Source: Nitratireductor aquimarinus (GTDB lineage Bacteria; Pseudomonadota; Alphaproteobacteria; Rhizobiales; Rhizobiaceae). From it: a stretch of 64,000 nt of DNA. Positions 45,257 to 52,873 of the stretch are shown here, piece after piece. The translations under genes and the position numbers were made by a program. The DNA lies in NCBI RefSeq assembly GCF_017255295.1, contig NZ_JAFKDE010000004.1, positions 310,001 through 374,000 of the forward strand, in the 5' to 3' direction. The notes under the pieces were generated by a model. The model worked only from the letters and a program-made list of their open reading frames with translations. It ran no database searches and was not told where the DNA came from. Numbering within the stretch: position 1 is the first letter of the stretch; each line of letters starts with the position of its first letter.

Positions 45257-47800
45257 TCAGGCGGACGCCGTGACCGCCCTCGCCTCGCCGACCTGCGCTC
45301 CCTCCTGCCCGGCGGACCGGGCAGGAAGCGGCGCCTGAAAGCGCTTGAGGCGCAGGGCATTGCCCAGCACGAAGACACTGGAGAGCGCCATCGCACCGGC
45401 AGCGAGCATGGGCGACAGGAGCGTGCCCGTGGCCGGATAGAGGACGCCGGCAGCAACCGGAATGAGACTCACATTGTAGGCGAAGGCCCAGAACAGGTTC
45501 TGCCTGATGTTGGTCATGGTCGCCTGCGAGAGGCCGATTGCATTGGCAACACCGGTCACATCGCCCGCCATGAGAACCACGTCGGCGCTTTCGATGGCGA
45601 CATCCGTTCCGGTGCCGATGGCGATGCCGACATCGGCTTCTGCCAGTGCAGGAGCATCGTTGATGCCGTCACCGACGAAGGAGACCGGACCTGCCAGACT
45701 GCGCAGGCGCTTGAGCGCCTCGACCTTGCCCTCGGGAAGAACCTCCGCCTCGACCCGGTCGATGCCCAGCTTTGCGGCAATGGCTTCGGCGGTGTGGCGG
45801 TTGTCGCCGGTGATCATGGCCACTTCGAGCCCCAGCGCATGCAGTGCAGCGATGGCACGCGGCGTTGATTCCTTGACCGGATCGGCAACGGCAACCACGG
45901 CGGCAAGCCGGCCATCGACCGCCGCATAAAGCGGCGTCTTGGCGTCGGTTGCGAGCCTGTCGGCATCGGCGGATGCGCTGCCGATCTCGACACCCTGCTG
46001 GCGCATGTAGCGGTCCGCACCGATGTGGAGTTTGCGGCCGTCAACGGTGGCTGCAATGCCGAAGCCCGGAACCGCATCGAACGCGGCGACCGGCTTGAGG
46101 GTGAGCCCTTCGGCGCGCGCGGCCTCGACGATGGCCTCGGCCACCGGATGTTCGGACATGGCTTCCGCCGATGCGACGAGCGAAAGGATATCGGCGCGCT
46201 CGAACCCATTCTGCATCACGAAATCGGTGAGTGCGGGGCGACCGAGCGTCAGCGTGCCGGTCTTGTCGAAGGCGACGACACTTGTGTTGCGCAGGCTCTG
46301 CAGCGCCTCGCCATTGCGGAACAGAACGCCGAGCTGTGCAGCGCGGCCGGTGCCGACCATGATGGAGGTGGGCGTGGCGAGCCCCATGGCGCACGGGCAG
46401 GCGATGATGAGCACCGCGACCGCGTTGACCAGCGCGAAGGCGAATGCGGGATCGGGACCGAACACCATCCACACGACGAAGGTGAGTGCGGCGGCAAGCA
46501 TCACGGCCGGCACAAACCAGGCCGTGACCCGGTCGACCACCGCCTGAATGGGCAGCTTGGCCCCTTGCGCGTTTTCGACCATGCGGATGATCTGCGCCAG
46601 CACCGTGTCGGAGCCGACCTTGGTGGCGCGGTAGACGAAGCTGCCGGTCTTGTTGATCGTTCCGCCGATCACCTCGTCGCCTTCGGCCTTGGAGACAGGC
46701 ACCGGCTCGCCGGAGATCATGGCTTCATCGACATAGGAAGAACCGCTTTCGACCAGACCGTCGACCGGCACCTTGTCGCCGGGGCGCACCTGAAGCCGGT
46801 CGCCCACAACCACGTCCTCAAGCGGCAGCTCGACAAAGGCATCGTCGCGGAGAACACGCGCGCTCTTGGCGCGCAGGCCCATCAGCCGCTTGATGGCCTC
46901 GCCGGTGCGGCCCTTGGCGCGCGCCTCCAGAAGCCGGCCGAGCAGGATGAGCGTGACGATGACGGCGGACGCCTCGAAATAGACGTTGACCGTGCCGGAC
47001 GGGAGAACGCCGGGCGCGAAAGTGGCCACGACCGAATAGGCCCAGGCGGCGGTGGAACCGAGCATGACAAGCGAGTTCATGTCCGGCGCAAAGCGCATCA
47101 GCGCGGGGAAGCCCTTGCGATAAAAGCGCAGGCCCGGCCCGAACTGCACGATGGTCGCCAGCACGAAATAGAGGAGGTAAAGCGTCTTGCGGTCGGCGAT
47201 CCCCATCAGCCATGCATGCATGCCCGGGATGAAATGGCTGCCCATCTCGAGAATGAAGATCGGAAGGGTGAAGATTGCAGCCAGCGTGAAATCGCGCTTG
47301 AGCGAGCGAAACTCGGCGGCCTTGGCCTCCTCATGCGCATCACGGGCGGCAGCGCCATCGGAACGGGCAACCGGCGTGTAACCGGACTTGCGGATCGCCT
47401 CTTCAACGCCGCGGCGCGCTTCATCGTTCAGAAGTTCGACGGATGCGCCTTCGGTGGCGAGGTTCACCGCGACCTTTGAAACGCCGGGCACGGCGGCAAT
47501 CGCCTGCTCCACACGCCGCACGCAGGATGCGCAGGTCATGCCCTCGATGCCGATATCGAGATGGCTCTCCGGCACGCCATAGCCGGCACGTTCCACCGCA
47601 CTGACGATGCTGGAAAAATCAACGCCGGGCTGCACCGCCACATCGGCCGTCTCGGTCGCCAGATTGACCGAGGCGCTTTCAACGCCATCGACGGCAGCAA
47701 TCGCCTTTTCCGCGCGTTTGACGCAGGAAGCACAGCTCAGCCCCTCGATGCGGAAGCGTTTTACATTGGCCGAAGACGTGCCGGCAGGAAGGGTATTCAT
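45257..47800 (-). CDS. copA: Copper(I)-exporting P1B-type ATPase CopA
   Basis: 847 aa inner-membrane ATPase. Two N-terminal heavy-metal-associated domains carry CxxC at Cys23/Cys26 (GLSCASC) and Cys90/Cys93 (GMTCASC). Membrane Cys-Pro-Cys at 469-471 ([14 protein letters not shown]), phosphorylated Asp513 in DKTGTLT, the SEHPVAEAI histidine-proline motif and [16 protein letters not shown] in the hinge are intact. The CPC motif plus late NVSLIP and [15 protein letters not shown] with Met/Ser pairs indicate Cu+ (P1B-1) transport. ATG 47800 is chosen: AGGG lies 8 bases upstream. A CueR-type promoter is directly upstream. Confidence 0.96.
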
Positions 47801-47836
47801 CGCTTTCACCCTGAATGACTATTGTTCAGGATTGCG

Positions 47837-47876: not shown

Positions 47877-48101
47877 TCACTGCATCTTGTCGGAGCCGGA
47901 AAAGGCGCTCAGGAGCAGGCGCAGATACTGCACTTCCGGGTGGTTCGGCAGCCGCCGGTCGATCTCGGCAAGCTGGCGGCGCGCCGCATATTCGATATCG
48001 GCATGGGGCGGGAGGCTCAAAAGCCACTCCATGAAAGCGCGCTGCTGCGCGGGGATCGAACCCGCGCGCAACAGCTTCATTCTGGTTGCGTCATACGCCA
48101 T
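47877..48101 (-). CDS. Small conserved-looking hypothetical protein downstream of nrdB
   Basis: 74 aa, basic to neutral, no signal or membrane segment. It begins MAYDATRMKLLRAGSIPAQQ; predicted mostly helical with an LPPHADIEYAARRQLAEID segment. The start at 48101 is 3 bases behind the nrdB stop, so it is the third cistron of nrdA-nrdB; a TTG at 48104 is the alternative. The stop lies 10 bases before the CueR promoter of copA. I do not recognise the family. Cotranscription suggests a link to ribonucleotide reductase or merely a local gene. Confidence 0.65.
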   Translation of the reverse strand: MAYDATRMKLLRAGSIPAQQRAFMEWLLSLPPHADIEYAARRQLAEIDRRLPNHPEVQYLRLLLSAFSGSDKMQ

Positions 48102-48104
48102 CAA

Positions 48105-49220
48105 TCAGTCCCAGCTCAGCGCGCCGCCGTTCTGATATTCGATGACGCGGGTCTCGAAGAAGTTCTTCTCCTTCTTCAGATCCATCGCCTCGCTCATCCA
48201 CGGGAACGGGTTTTCGGTTTCGGCGAAGACCGGAGCCAGGCCAAGCTGGGCGCAGCGGCGGTTTGCGATGAAGTGCATGTACTGTTCGCACAGCGCCGCG
48301 TTGAGACCGAGAAAGCCGCGCGGCATCGTATCCCGCCCGTAGGATGCTTCCAGTTCGGCGGCATGCGCGATCATGCCCCGCACCTCGTCCTGAAAGGCGG
48401 GCGTCCAAAGATGCGGGTTCTCGATGCGGATCTGGTTGATGACGTCGATGCCGAAGTTCAGATGGATCGATTCATCGCGCAGGATGTATTGATACTGCTC
48501 GGCGATGCCGACCATCTTGTTGCGGCGGCCAAGCGACAGGATCTGTGCGAAGCCGGTGTAGAACCACATGCCCTCGAAGATGACATAGAAGGCCACGAGG
48601 TCACGCAGGAACGCCTGATCGGCCTCCGGCTTGCCGGTCCTGAATTCGGGATCGTCCAGATGCTGCGTGAAGTCGAGCGCCCATGCCGCCTTGTCGGTGA
48701 TGGAGGGCACTTCGCGATACATGTTGAACAGCTCGCCCTCGTCCAGCGACAGGCTTTCCACGATGTACTGGAAAGTGTGCGTGTGGATCGCCTCCTCGAA
48801 GGCCTGACGCAGCAGATATTGCCGGCATTCGGGATTGGTGAGGTGCCGGTAGATCGCCAGAACGATGTTGTTGGCGACAAGGGATTCGGAGGCGGCGAAG
48901 AATCCGAGATTGCGCTTGATCATGCGCCGCTCGTCTTCGGTCAGGCCATCGCGCGACTTCCAGAGCGCAATGTCGGCCTGCATGGAGACCTCGGTGGGCA
49001 TCCAGTGATTGTTGCAGCCGGCGAGATATTTCTCCCAGGCCCAGCGATATTTGAGCGGCAGGAGCTGGTTGACGTCGGCACGGGCGTTGATCATGCGCTT
49101 GTCATCCACCGAGACGCGGGCCGCCCCGCGCTCGATCTCGCCGAGGCCCGTGGCGTCGGCCTCGTCAGCGGCAGGGTTCGCGGCAGTGGCGGGCTGCGAT
49201 TGTTCGTTCCAGTTCAGCAT
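48105..49220 (-). CDS. nrdB: Ribonucleotide reductase small subunit NrdB, class Ic (Mn/Fe) type
   Basis: 371 aa ferritin-fold subunit that supplies the oxidising cofactor to NrdA. The metal ligands are Glu112 (AASESL), Glu143 and His146 (EEAIHTHTF), Glu216 (IFEGMW), Glu250 and His253 (RDESIH). Where class Ia enzymes have the radical Tyr there is Phe150, and where they have Asp as first ligand there is Glu112. Spacing of all seven positions equals that of the Chlamydia trachomatis class Ic enzyme (Glu89, Glu120, His123, Phe127, Glu193, Glu227, His230; recalled) with a constant offset of 23. Tyr152 corresponds to the electron-transfer Tyr129 there. Cofactor therefore probably Mn(IV)/Fe(III). 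It sits 129 bases behind nrdA. Confidence 0.93.
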
Positions 49221-49255
49221 TTTTTTGGCTTCCGATTGGGTTTGGGCGCTACGTA

Positions 49256-49320
49256 CCCACCTTCGTCCTTCGACAGGCTCAGGATGAAGGTGGGGGGCTC
49301 AGGCTCACGATGAGGGTTGG
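49256..49320. repeat. Intergenic repeat between nrdA and nrdB with CTTCGACAGGCTCAGGATGA core
   Basis: The core with CTTCGACAGGCTCAGGATGA (49267-49286) is, from memory, a repeat seen in many alphaproteobacterial intergenic regions. A degenerate second half (GGGGGCTCAGGCTCACGATGAGG) follows up to about 49316. It fills the unusually long gap between nrdA and nrdB and may form a processing hairpin between the two cistrons. Confidence 0.6.
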
Positions 49321-49349
49321 GGCGCGGAGCGGGAGATGCGAAGGCCGGG

Positions 49350-52229
49350 CTACTGGCAGGCTTCGCACTCGGGATCGTCGATGGCGCAGGCCCTGCCCCA
49401 TGCGGCGTTCGGATCGATGGCGATGGGCGCGGCGGAAACGCTCGTGGCGGAGACGGCGTTGAGTTTGCCGTCGGTTCCCTTGAGCGTGGATTTCTCCACA
49501 TGGGTGGCCGAGCGCGAGCGCAGGTAATAGGTCGTCTTCAGACCCTTCCGCCACGCCAGCCGGTAGAGTTCGTCCAGCTTCTTGCCACTCGGATTGGCGA
49601 TGTACAGATTGAGCGACTGGGCCTGATCGATCCATTTCTGGCGGCGCGAGGCGGCCTCGATCAGCCAGGCGGGTGCGATCTCGAACGCGGTCGCATAGAG
49701 CGCCTTCAGATCATCCGGCACGCGGTCGATCTGACCGACGGACCCATCGAAATATTTGAGGTCCGACATCATGACCTCATCCCACAGACCGCGCTCTTTC
49801 AGATCGTGAATCAGCGCCGCATTCACCACGGTGAAATCGCCCGACATGTTCGATTTGACGAACAGGTTCTGGTAGGCGGGCTCGATGGACTGGGACACGC
49901 CGCAGATATTGGAGATGGTGGCGGTGGGCGCGATGGCCATGCAGTTGGAATTGCGCATGCCGGTTTTCTTCACCCGCTTGCGCAGGCTCTCCCAGTCAAG
50001 CGTTGCCGCACTGTCCATCTCGACGCCCGGCCGCGCCTCTTCCAGAAGCCGGATGGAATCGATCGGCAGAACGCCCTTCGACCAGAGCGAACCGTCGAAG
50101 CTGGCATAGCGCCCGCGCTCGGCGGCAAGTTCCACCGAAGCGGCAATCGCATGATAGCCGATTGCCTCCATGCTCATATCGGCAAAGGCCACCGCCTGTT
50201 CACTCTGATAGGGAATGCGCAGCTTTTGCAGGGCATCCTGAAAGCCCATCAGGCCGAGACCGACCGGGCGATGGCGCAGATTGGAATGGCGCGCCTCGGG
50301 AATGGTGTAGAAATTGATGTCGATGACATTGTCGAGCATGCGCATGGCGGTGCCGACCGTGCGCGCCAGCCGCGCCAGATCGAGCGCGCCATCGGCAATG
50401 TGATTGACGAGGTTCACCGAACCCAGATTGCAGACGGCCACCTCGTCCCTGGACGTATTGAGCGTGATTTCCGTGCACAGATTGGATGAGTGAACGACGC
50501 CGACATGGCCCTGCGGCGAACGGATGTTGCACGGGTCCTTGAAGGTGACCCAGGGATGCCCGGTCTCGAACAGCATGGTGAGCATGCGCCGCCACAGATC
50601 GACCGCGCGCACGGTTTTGAAGACACGCAGTTCACCGGCTTCCGCCTTTGCCTCATAGGCCTCGTAGGCAGCGCGAAACGCCTTGCCATAAAGGTCGTGC
50701 AGGTCGGGCGTCTCGTCAGGCGAAAACAGCGTCCACGAACCGTCCGCCTCGACGCGTTCCATGAACAGGTCCGGCACCCAGTTGGCCGTGTTCATGTCGT
50801 GCGTGCGGCGGCGGTCGTCGCCGGTGTTCTTGCGCAGATCGAGGAACTCCTCGATATCGATGTGCCAGCTCTCCAGATAGGCGCAGACGGCGCCCTTGCG
50901 CTTGCCGCCCTGATTGACGGCGATGGCCGTGTCATTGGCGACCTTGAGGAACGGCACGACGCCCTGGCTCTCGCCATTGGTGCCCTTGATATGCGCGCCG
51001 AGACCGCGCACCGGCGTCCAGTCATTGCCGAGACCGCCGGAATATTTGGCAAGCAGCGCATTGTCCTTCACCGCCTTGAAGATGCCGTCGAGATCGTCGG
51101 CCACCGTGGTGAGGAAGCAGGAAGAAAGCTGCGGGCGCAGCGTGCCGGAATTGAACAGGGTGGGCGTGGAGGCCATGAAGTCGAAGGACGACAGAAGGTC
51201 ATAGAACTCGATGGCGCGCGCCTCGCGGTCGATCTCGCGCACGGCAAGCCCCATGGCGACACGCATGAAGAACGCCTGCGGCAACTCGAAACGAATGCCC
51301 CCGGCATGCAGGAAATAGCGGTCGTAGAGCGTCTGGAGGCCAAGGAACTGGAAGTTCAGATCACGCTCGGGCCTGAGCGCCGCGCCAAGGCGCGCCAGAT
51401 CGAAACGGGCAAGCTCGGGGTCGATGAGCTCGCTGGCAATGCCGCTCGCGATAAAGTCAGGGAAATAGCTTGCATAGCGCTCCGCCATTTCGGCCTGCGT
51501 CGCCTGCTCGGGCCTGCCGGCCACAAAGGTAAGCGCCTCGCGCCGCAGCCTGTCGAGCAGAAGACGCGCGGAGACGAACGCATAGTCAGGCTCCTGCTCC
51601 ACCAGTGTGCGGGCGGCAAGGATGGGCGCAAGCGACAGCTCGTCCTGACGGATGCCGTCATAGAGATTGCGGCGGGTTTCCGTGAGGATCGGTTCGGCGG
51701 AAACGGTCTTGAGGCCGGCACAGGCTTCTTCGACGATTGCGGCAAGCCGCGCCTCGTCCAGCGGAACCAGCGTTCCGTCATCCGCCGTCATCTGCAGGGC
51801 GGATTGCGGGGCTTCCACACTGGCCGTCCCGGCGGCGCGTTCGCGGGCGCGCTCCTCGCGATAGAGCACATAGGCGCGGGCAACCCGATGATGCTCGCCG
51901 CGCATGAGGGCGAGTTCCACCTGATCCTGAATTTCCTCGATGTGGAACAGACGGTCCGCATCGGCCCGGCGCGTGAGCGCGGACACGACCTGTTCCGCCA
52001 GCTCTTCGACAATTTCATGGACGCGGCGCGAGCCAGCGGCGGTGGAACCCTCAACCGCCAGAAACGCCTTGGTCAGCGCCACCGCGATCTTTGCCGGATC
52101 GAACGGTGTTACACCGCCACTACGGCGGATGACGCGATACCCCGGTTCAAGAGATGTAGTTTCGGTGTTTGTGATGGAATGCGGAACCGTGGCGGTGCCG
52201 TTGGTGTGTTGTGCTTCAGTCGCCGGCAT
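49350..52229 (-). CDS. nrdA: Ribonucleoside-diphosphate reductase large subunit NrdA
   Basis: 959 aa catalytic subunit that reduces NDPs to dNDPs. Two ATP-cone-like segments open the protein (YRVIRRSGGVTPFDPAKI, then MTADDGTLVPLDEARLAAIV). Next come the active-site Cys in LSSCFLTTVADD, the radical Cys in SSNLCTEITLN, the second redox Cys in VAVCNLGSVNL, the MNTANWVPDLFM and ISNICGVSQSIEP segments and the C-terminal redox tail DPECEACQ. Start ATG 52229 is preceded by GGGGG; an in-frame start at 52283 lies inside the structured leader and is rejected. The gene is under a cobalamin riboswitch (52340-52525) and partners with the class Ic NrdB. Two cones suggest dual allosteric control by ATP/dATP. 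Confidence 0.96.
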   Translation of the reverse strand: MPATEAQHTNGTATVPHSITNTETTSLEPGYRVIRRSGGVTPFDPAKIAVALTKAFLAVEGSTAAGSRRVHEIVEELAEQVVSALTRRADADRLFHIEEIQDQVELALMRGEHHRVARAYVLYREERARERAAGTASVEAPQSALQMTADDGTLVPLDEARLAAIVEEACAGLKTVSAEPILTETRRNLYDGIRQDELSLAPILAARTLVEQEPDYAFVSARLLLDRLRREALTFVAGRPEQATQAEMAERYASYFPDFIASGIASELIDPELARFDLARLGAALRPERDLNFQFLGLQTLYDRYFLHAGGIRFELPQAFFMRVAMGLAVREIDREARAIEFYDLLSSFDFMASTPTLFNSGTLRPQLSSCFLTTVADDLDGIFKAVKDNALLAKYSGGLGNDWTPVRGLGAHIKGTNGESQGVVPFLKVANDTAIAVNQGGKRKGAVCAYLESWHIDIEEFLDLRKNTGDDRRRTHDMNTANWVPDLFMERVEADGSWTLFSPDETPDLHDLYGKAFRAAYEAYEAKAEAGELRVFKTVRAVDLWRRMLTMLFETGHPWVTFKDPCNIRSPQGHVGVVHSSNLCTEITLNTSRDEVAVCNLGSVNLVNHIADGALDLARLARTVGTAMRMLDNVIDINFYTIPEARHSNLRHRPVGLGLMGFQDALQKLRIPYQSEQAVAFADMSMEAIGYHAIAASVELAAERGRYASFDGSLWSKGVLPIDSIRLLEEARPGVEMDSAATLDWESLRKRVKKTGMRNSNCMAIAPTATISNICGVSQSIEPAYQNLFVKSNMSGDFTVVNAALIHDLKERGLWDEVMMSDLKYFDGSVGQIDRVPDDLKALYATAFEIAPAWLIEAASRRQKWIDQAQSLNLYIANPSGKKLDELYRLAWRKGLKTTYYLRSRSATHVEKSTLKGTDGKLNAVSATSVSAAPIAIDPNAAWGRACAIDDPECEACQ

Positions 52230-52234
52230 GTAGA

Positions 52235-52257
52235 CCCCCGTGGCGGTTGGACGGGGG
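52235..52257 (-). promoter_or_regulatory. RBS-masking hairpin in front of nrdA (probable riboswitch expression platform)
   Basis: On the minus strand CCCCCGT (52257-52251) pairs with ACGGGGG (52241-52235), and GGGGG is the apparent Shine-Dalgarno 5 bases before the nrdA ATG at 52229. Formation of this stem would hide the ribosome site, so the cobalamin riboswitch upstream probably acts on translation initiation. No T-rich terminator is seen between the aptamer and the start codon. Confidence 0.6.
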
Positions 52258-52339
52258 CGCGGAGACATGCGGCGCGACGGCATTGCCGTAGCGACACACG
52301 CACCACCGGGACACCCCGCCCGTGGACGTTTATTTCGTC

Positions 52340-52525
52340 ATGGCAGGTCTCCTGGCTCGCAGGTCATCACCGCTTTCCGGCCTTCCCGATGCGCTGGGGC
52401 ATCAGTGACACAGAGTGAAAGCGGCTCGCTGCTTACAGTTGCGGGGGCAGCGCCGGCCTTGCCCAGAGGCGCACCGGCTTCCCTTTTCACTTCCGATCCC
52501 GCAGGGAATCGAAAGAACCATAACC
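52340..52525 (-). ncRNA. Cobalamin (adenosylcobalamin-class) riboswitch upstream of nrdAB
   Basis: Read on the minus strand, the conserved elements occur in order: GGTTCTTTC near 52519, AAGGGAAGCCGGTG, GGCGCTGCCCCCGCAACTGT (B12 box core), a GTCACTG near 52410, CGGGAAGGCCGG, a GATGACC and the terminal GAGCCAGGAGACCTGCC ending at 52342. These match the cobalamin riboswitch consensus nearly base for base. It ends 113 bases before the nrdA start codon. High B12 would reduce expression of this B12-independent ribonucleotide reductase, as known for nrdAB in Streptomyces. Confidence 0.95.
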
Positions 52526-52554
52526 CCTACAGTTGGTATCTTCTGGATATATGA

Positions 52555-52567
52555 AGTCAATATATTG
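52555..52567 (-). promoter_or_regulatory. Possible NrdR box overlapping the nrdA promoter
   Basis: On the minus strand AACAATATATTGACTT contains the perfect palindrome CAATATATTG (52567-52558) and resembles the NrdR consensus ACACWATATWTTGTGT. TTGACT (52560-52555) overlaps it and would serve as -35; TACCAA about 16 bases on is a poor -10. NrdR boxes usually occur in pairs and I see only a weak second candidate (CATATAT, 13 bp away). The rest of 52526-52627 shows nothing else. Confidence 0.4.
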
Positions 52568-52627
52568 TTTCCGGGGAAAGCAGAAACAAACTGCTGGATT
52601 ATTCGCAACGCCGCTTTGGGCATGGCT

Positions 52628-52873
52628 CTACGGCGCGCGTGTGATCTCCTCCAGAACGGAAAAAATCCGTTCATCGTCGCATTGAGCAACGTTGAAACGC
52701 AGGAACCCGCAGGCCGAGCCTGACAGGCTGAAGGCGTTTCCTGGCGCGAGCACCACGTCCCTCTCAAGCGCATGGCGGGCAAGCGTGGCCGCATCCGGCC
52801 CGTCGGTCACTGCCGCCATCATTCTGTGCGTGGCAGGCGCCAGATTTTCCGCCGGGCGCTCGGGCGCACCGGC
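52628..52873 (-). pseudogene. C-terminal remnant of a MocR/PdxR-type (GntR HTH plus aminotransferase) regulator
   Basis: An in-frame piece reads DAATLARHALERDVVLAPGN, then AFSLSGSACGFLRFNVAQ and DDERIFSVLEEI before the stop. This is the end of the fold-type I aminotransferase domain found in MocR regulators. The usual upstream parts (lysine site, HTH) are missing: the frame begins after TGA near 52874-52876, only about 15 bases behind the ABC ATPase stop. There is no plausible start with SD apart from ATG 52822, which would give only 64 residues. It looks like a deletion relic; the intact regulator might once have controlled the neighbouring importer. Confidence 0.75.

Follow-up and report, generated by a model that had tools for sequence, protein, structure and literature searches.

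Why should the genes of a ribonucleotide reductase that does not need B12 stand behind a riboswitch for cobalamin, and between which enzymes would such a switch choose? The window analyzed here, a 64-kb stretch of DNA from Nitratireductor aquimarinus, raises this question through an nrdA-nrdB operon in which a sequence-only reading had noticed both a cobalamin riboswitch and a small subunit with the residues of class Ic. In a class Ia small subunit, the radical tyrosine occupies the site that is phenylalanine in class Ic, and the first metal ligand is aspartate in the former and glutamate in the latter. We propose, with a probability of roughly 0.86, that the nrdAB leader senses adenosylcobalamin and represses nrdAB when this cofactor is plentiful. 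Deoxynucleotides would then be made by a B12-dependent class II enzyme, NrdJ. When B12 or cobalt is short, the cell would instead rely on NrdAB, the oxygen-dependent class Ic enzyme whose cofactor is probably Mn/Fe.

RESULTS

Cobalamin riboswitch upstream of nrdA and nrdB

A cmscan search of the whole window gave a single match at the Rfam gathering threshold, a cobalamin riboswitch (RF00174) located 5' of nrdA and nrdB on the minus strand that all three share (Table 1). Since the match spans the full model (positions 1-189), the aptamer is full length, and its score, far above the gathering score of 31.5, rules out a chance match. The complete cobalamin riboswitch that the sequence-only reading had placed at 52340-52525 on the minus strand lies inside this match and is thus borne out by the covariance model. 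TTGAC occurs at most 60 nt 5' of the riboswitch in 15/15 family leaders; a scan of 52200-52700 with the sigma-70 consensus found no promoter.

The L5 and L13 loops are known kissing partners of cobalamin riboswitches, and their complementarity is a feature of the family. In the window, the two loop cores are complementary to each other, with L13 lying in a hairpin 3' of the aptamer; both cores are kept, and L13 (GGGCGGGGTG) is identical, in 80 of 81 leaders.

Table 1. Features of the nrdAB leader and operon in the window, and other cobalamin riboswitches of the same genome
Feature	Coordinates	Strand	Basis or remark
TTGAC, -35-like element immediately 5' of aptamer	52556..52560	-	sequence pattern
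Cobalamin riboswitch aptamer, RF00174, full length	52325..52537	-	cmscan, 126.1 bits, E 2.9e-31
L5 loop core CCCCGC, predicted L13 partner	52441..52446	-	kept in 80/81 leaders
P13 hairpin CCACGGGCGGGGTGTCCCGGTGG	52303..52325	-	sequence reading
L13 loop GCGGGG, complementary to L5	52314..52319	-	pairing read from sequence
Anti-Shine-Dalgarno arm GCCCCCGT	52251..52258	-	8-bp pairing with ACGGGGGT; swap test, 50 representatives
Shine-Dalgarno arm ACGGGGGT, 4 bases 5' of nrdA ATG	52234..52241	-	8-bp pairing with GCCCCCGT
nrdA, class I ribonucleotide reductase large subunit, 959 aa	49350..52229	-	PRK07207 family
nrdB, small subunit, 371 aa	48105..49220	-	PRK07209 family; Phe150 and Glu112
Other cobalamin riboswitch 1			5' of cobW (Pfam), then cobN-like start (by eye)
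Other cobalamin riboswitch 2			5' of hupE-like/cobU-like pair on other strand (by eye)
Other cobalamin riboswitch 3			5' of luciferase-like gene, then btuF-like gene (by eye)
Other cobalamin riboswitch 4			5' of TonB-receptor-like gene (by eye)

The start of nrdA was set at the ATG common to its relatives (52229), which has a G-rich Shine-Dalgarno sequence a few bases 5'; the start of the longest mechanical reading frame, at 52283, falls inside the leader and was rejected in favor of this common start. NrdA contains two ATP-cone matches, and its nearest solved structure by sequence is 5im3. The gap of 129 bases between nrdA and nrdB had been read correctly. It holds, at 49256-49294 on the minus strand, a copy of a repeat (CCTGAGCNTGTCGAAGG) that occurs 41 times in the genome and is frequently arranged in inverted pairs; this copy can fold as a hairpin. 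Directly after the nrdB stop comes a 75-codon frame (47877-48104, minus strand) for a predicted protein, which is 79% identical over 58 residues in the nearest relative (L047) and has weaker relatives in other nrdAB loci. Farther downstream, 45257-47809 on the minus strand encodes a P-type ATPase, of copper type by eye, in which two heavy-metal-associated domains are present.

NrdB as a class Ic small subunit

The class Ic residues previously read from NrdB stand at both diagnostic positions, Phe150 at the site of the radical tyrosine and Glu112 at the first metal ligand. By sequence, the nearest solved structures are 6y2n and then 1syy and 4d8f, the last two being Chlamydia R2 structures; the NrdB of Chlamydia trachomatis is the prototype of class Ic. 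Similarity to C. trachomatis R2 extends over the full length (4.5e-136), and E112, E143, H146, F150, E216, E250, and H253 align with E89, E120, H123, F127, E193, E227, and H230 of 1syy; by the roles of the aligned Chlamydia residues, E143, H146, E216, E250, and H253 are the other ligand positions. By residues and homology, NrdB is assigned to class Ic, and a Mn/Fe cofactor is predicted from the same residues. In its diagnostic Phe and Glu and its full-length similarity, it resembles the C. trachomatis protein, for which we know of no B12 control, nor of any NrdJ in that organism.

Phe and Glu recur in 80/80 loci from named genomes. The 66 sampled genomes (see below) hold 67 NrdB places, and in 66 of these both residues are again present; the remaining one (G031) has Tyr and Asp. 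Since the class Ic assignment draws on residues and homology, NrdB could in practice use a metal pair other than Mn/Fe; the constancy of both diagnostic residues among the sampled genomes and the similarity to C. trachomatis R2 make this improbable.

B12-dependent NrdJ in the same genome

A B12-dependent NrdJ had been predicted to lie elsewhere in the genome, and a search found it at C10:81329-83704, in a 1268-residue frame that scored 573 bits against a cut-off of 399.95 and whose C-terminal end, as read from the sequence, is Cys-rich. The genome with riboswitch-nrdAB thus also encodes a predicted B12-dependent isozyme, and a Pfam barrel search found NrdA and NrdJ as its only reductase large subunits. 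Five cobalamin riboswitches are present, one in the nrdA leader and four others (Table 1).

Distribution of riboswitch-nrdAB

A scan of named genomes with NrdB, from which 80 loci of a longer list were kept, led by their titles mostly to organisms of the order Hyphomicrobiales. A riboswitch was found 5' of nrdA in 74 of the 80, its box pattern lying between 3.4 and 4.0 kb upstream of the nrdB motif, and a covariance model trained on 25 of the aptamers recovered the same 74, 23 of which belonged to that training set. The six loci without a riboswitch call comprise five with too little upstream sequence and one, L053 (Aquamicrobium zhengzhouense), without nrdA. The latter was considered as an nrdAB operon free of B12 control and rejected, its nrdB copy being preceded by the last 29 residues of nrdA only. 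It is a second nrdB copy, followed by a cobalamin match of only 40 bits, and the riboswitch-bearing copy of the same genome is L049.

Genome samples were also drawn evenly at the levels of family, order, and class, with N. aquimarinus counted in each, and they overlap partly with the named loci (for example, L048 is G108). NrdB matches were found in 18 of 151 family genomes and 3 of 385 class genomes (E up to 1e-80 in both), and in 47 of 397 order genomes (E up to 1e-90), or about one in eight. The two other Nitratireductor genomes in the sample had no NrdB match. Because NrdB is this frequent in the order, and because the riboswitch is present wherever NrdJ is present and the leader can be assessed (56/56; see below), riboswitch-nrdAB is not rare in alphaproteobacteria, nor is it peculiar to N. 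aquimarinus.

A metE-like gene, for B12-independent methionine synthase, lies near nrdAB in 15 of the 80 named loci (that of L078 was the one checked with Pfam). In 14 of them (L058, L062, L066, L075, L078, L090, L092, L110, L115, L117, L119, L120, L122, and L124), it is on the same strand as, and within about 0.7 kb 3' of, another cobalamin riboswitch. Such a neighborhood of nrdAB and a metE-like gene is a small island of B12 independence.

Joint presence and joint loss of riboswitch and NrdJ

NrdB, riboswitch, and NrdJ were cross-tabulated over the 66 genomes with an NrdB match. To be counted, a riboswitch had to share the strand of nrdB and precede it by about 3 to 4 kb, the position of the nrdA leader; most order-level genomes were credited with nrdA on the strength of the 3-4 kb that separate the riboswitch from nrdB. 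Doubtful upstream regions were searched with cmscan, which decided the status of G742, G788, G864, G910, G922, and G933. G074 has its riboswitch 5' of the start of an nrdA piece, with nrdB on a different contig. Four genomes were left out: G613 (first 150 nrdA residues not found, riboswitch present but 3' of nrdB), G867 (nrdB without an adjacent nrdA, one in-frame TAG), G920 (upstream region masked), and G031 (Tyr-type NrdB). Among the 62 assessable genomes with Phe-type NrdB, all 56 with NrdJ (split over contigs in G008 and G074) have the riboswitch at the nrdA leader, and none of the six without NrdJ (G044, G076, G829, G855, G880, and G891) has one at nrdA. Fisher's test of riboswitch against NrdJ gives 1.6e-8, a value that ignores the kinship of these related genomes.

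In a tree of NrdB, the six NrdJ-less genomes form two groups, both among riboswitch-bearing genomes: G044 with G076 (support 99/86), and the four genomes of genus g499 (93/70), which are joined to the riboswitch-bearing G841 at 97/88. In this tree, 28 of 63 inner branches are open and the bootstrap had not settled; G670, whose residues are F and E, was left out over a mismatch with the script's motif. Because the NrdJ-less genomes fall into two groups, we count two independent joint losses, and it is on these that the association of riboswitch and NrdJ rests. The loss in g499 is specific to nrdA, since each of the four genomes keeps one or two other cobalamin riboswitches; one of those in G891 lies on the strand opposite to nrdA at a distance of about 2 kb. 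G044 and G076, which have small genomes, contain no cobalamin riboswitch at all. The only Tyr-type NrdB (Asp and Tyr), that of G031, occurs with NrdJ and without a riboswitch on its nrd contig.

Among the named loci, NrdJ exceeded its cut-off in 17 of the 18 carriers examined (of the 80). The exception is L060, labelled Erythrobacter tepidarius, with riboswitch-nrdAB and no NrdJ of this NrdJ family. Its leader is nearly identical to the Brucella/Falsochrobactrum type, so the record is likely a case of contamination or recent transfer. The nrdAB leader of L057, labelled Acidobacteria, is also nearly of that type, again probably by contamination or transfer.

The patchiness of the operon in the family, including its absence from the two other sampled Nitratireductor genomes, suggests that it may spread as a unit, and the riboswitch might then be a passive passenger copied with the operon, its regulation lost. 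A passenger would not explain why the riboswitch is absent from all six assessable NrdJ-less genomes, and the L5 and L13 cores have been kept almost throughout the leaders compared; we regard this explanation as very improbable, and favor a riboswitch that still controls nrdAB.

The nrdA leader in genus g499

What stands upstream of nrdA after the riboswitch is lost was examined in the g499 leaders L156-L159 (G829, G855, G880, and G891). Three of the four share a 16-base invariant block (CGACTCAGATACCGTG) that occurs in those leaders only among the 187 loci compared; the fourth, G829, lacks it and was left out of the three-row comparison, in which 111 of 270 columns are invariant and none of 2000 column shuffles gave so long a run. 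The three also share an NrdR-box-like motif, ACTATAT, near the place where the aptamer would begin. No Rfam family matched the g499 leaders upstream of nrdA at the gathering threshold. A weak cobalamin aptamer in the NrdJ-less leaders was rejected, as the coding strand upstream of nrdA gave no cobalamin match even when E values up to 10 were admitted, and none above 10 bits with our custom model (R1) with filters off. Common ancestry within the genus may explain part of the conservation. That the g499 leader is an aptamer remodelled after the loss of NrdJ to another signal, for example a nucleotide or a metal, is a long shot; such a change would have come about once B12 had ceased to signal whether NrdAB is needed.

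Predicted control at the nrdA ribosome-binding site

The last hairpin of the leader can pair the nrdA Shine-Dalgarno sequence with a C-rich arm, as GCCCCCGT/ACGGGGGT in the window, CCCCAA/TTGGGG in Bosea (L077), and GACCCCGG/CCGGGGTT in Nitrobacter (L110). We infer that the aptamer binds its ligand and that binding represses nrdAB, probably by hiding the ribosome-binding site, a step to which folding of the leaders lends modest support. With ligand bound, L13 would dock on L5, leaving the anti-Shine-Dalgarno arm free to pair with the Shine-Dalgarno sequence and block translation; with no ligand, L13 may itself pair with that arm and thereby free the ribosome site.

Folding was compared over 79 leaders, G147 and L106 being left out when the script found no start; alignment A1 holds 78 of the 79, without L050. 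Within the 60 nt upstream of the start, 75/79 contain a helix of 5 bp or more with the Shine-Dalgarno sequence. Against single-sequence shuffles, a weak test, the hairpin beat 95% of shuffles in 4/79, and the window leader folds with a z-score of only -1.3. When arms were swapped among 50 representatives, own pairs averaged -11.9 and swapped pairs -10.9 kcal/mol (0/10000 permutations as low), although 41% of foreign arms equalled or surpassed the own arm in pairing. L13 had a lower energy with its own C-rich region than after shuffling in 41 of the 50. In a local folding model that leaves out the aptamer and pseudoknots, blocking L13 lowered the mean openness of the Shine-Dalgarno sequence from 0.17 to 0.06, with a fall of more than 0.1 in 27 leaders and a rise in 1 of the 79; with L13 free, openness was below 0.3 in 59/79, the site being mostly paired in both states, so that this model does not display an ON state. 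The window leader went from 0.06 (L13 free) to 0.00 (blocked). Together, the swap, L13-fit, and L13-blocking results suggest a model in which B12 makes L13 dock on L5, so that the C-rich arm is released for pairing with the Shine-Dalgarno sequence and translation stops.

The riboswitch could instead act by terminating transcription. The Streptomyces study by Borovok from 2006 names control of transcription in its title, and in Propionibacterium acnes a large part of nrdAB transcription seems to stop short of the first gene (PMC3848588). On the minus strand of 52200-52700, by contrast, no terminator-like site was found (the one site is on the plus strand, and shuffles average 0.4), only 4/79 leaders have a run of five T anywhere from L13 to the start, and the last hairpin covers the nrdA Shine-Dalgarno sequence. 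Termination is thus the less favored mechanism, though one to be taken seriously, and control at the ribosome-binding site is preferred.

DISCUSSION

B12 control of a B12-independent reductase had been cited in the sequence-only reading for Streptomyces alone, where transcription of nrdABS, titled class Ia, is reportedly controlled by a B12 riboswitch. The present operon is like nrdABS in having such a riboswitch 5' of a B12-independent class I reductase, and unlike it, besides belonging to another phylum, in the Phe/Glu residues of class Ic and the predicted ribosome-site hairpin. A further case concerns nrdDG, which encodes a class III reductase. The range of known systems is wider than Streptomyces. 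In P. acnes, riboswitches precede the B12-independent nrdAB and nrdDG and none precedes nrdRJ, from which the authors conclude that nrdJ then supplies much of the reductase (PMC3848588); the riboswitch on a B12-independent reductase is shared with the present case, while the phylum and the apparent end of transcription before nrdA are not. For Bacillus methanolicus, also of another phylum, a predicted cobalamin riboswitch 5' of nrdAB is described, with another 5' of metE (PMC4342826). For the B12-elements of delta-proteobacterial nrdDG, it has been proposed that B12 inhibits the B12-independent reductase where NrdJ exists (PMC545781), a logic shared with ours for a reductase that is here the class I nrdAB. 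B12 control of B12-independent reductases is thus already known, and the principle is not new.

Individual alphaproteobacterial sites may not be new either; nrdAB sites from this class of bacteria may already be listed in Rodionov's 2003 work. The cobalamin regulons of Sun 2013 include a category "isozymes of B12-dependent enzymes" and 15 Rhizobiales genomes (PMC3766115), and for that reason its tables may well contain such sites. Judged from listings and passages, our literature search found no paper that joins a class Ic reductase with a B12 riboswitch. The sequence-only reading likewise gave no case of a class Ic enzyme under B12 control from alphaproteobacteria, where the arrangement is not rare. 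What is new is the class Ic enzyme under a B12 riboswitch and the loss of this riboswitch together with NrdJ.

Across dozens of genomes, and with two natural losses as controls, the riboswitch is kept where a B12-dependent reductase is present and missing where it is not. Given the class Ic residues of the enzyme that would be repressed, the cell would in effect be choosing between a cobalt and a Mn/Fe cofactor for DNA synthesis. Sinorhizobium meliloti belongs to the same order. Its nrdJ is stated to be essential (PMC6759758). Riboswitch-nrdAB would thus offer a ready experimental system for how cells choose metals for DNA synthesis.
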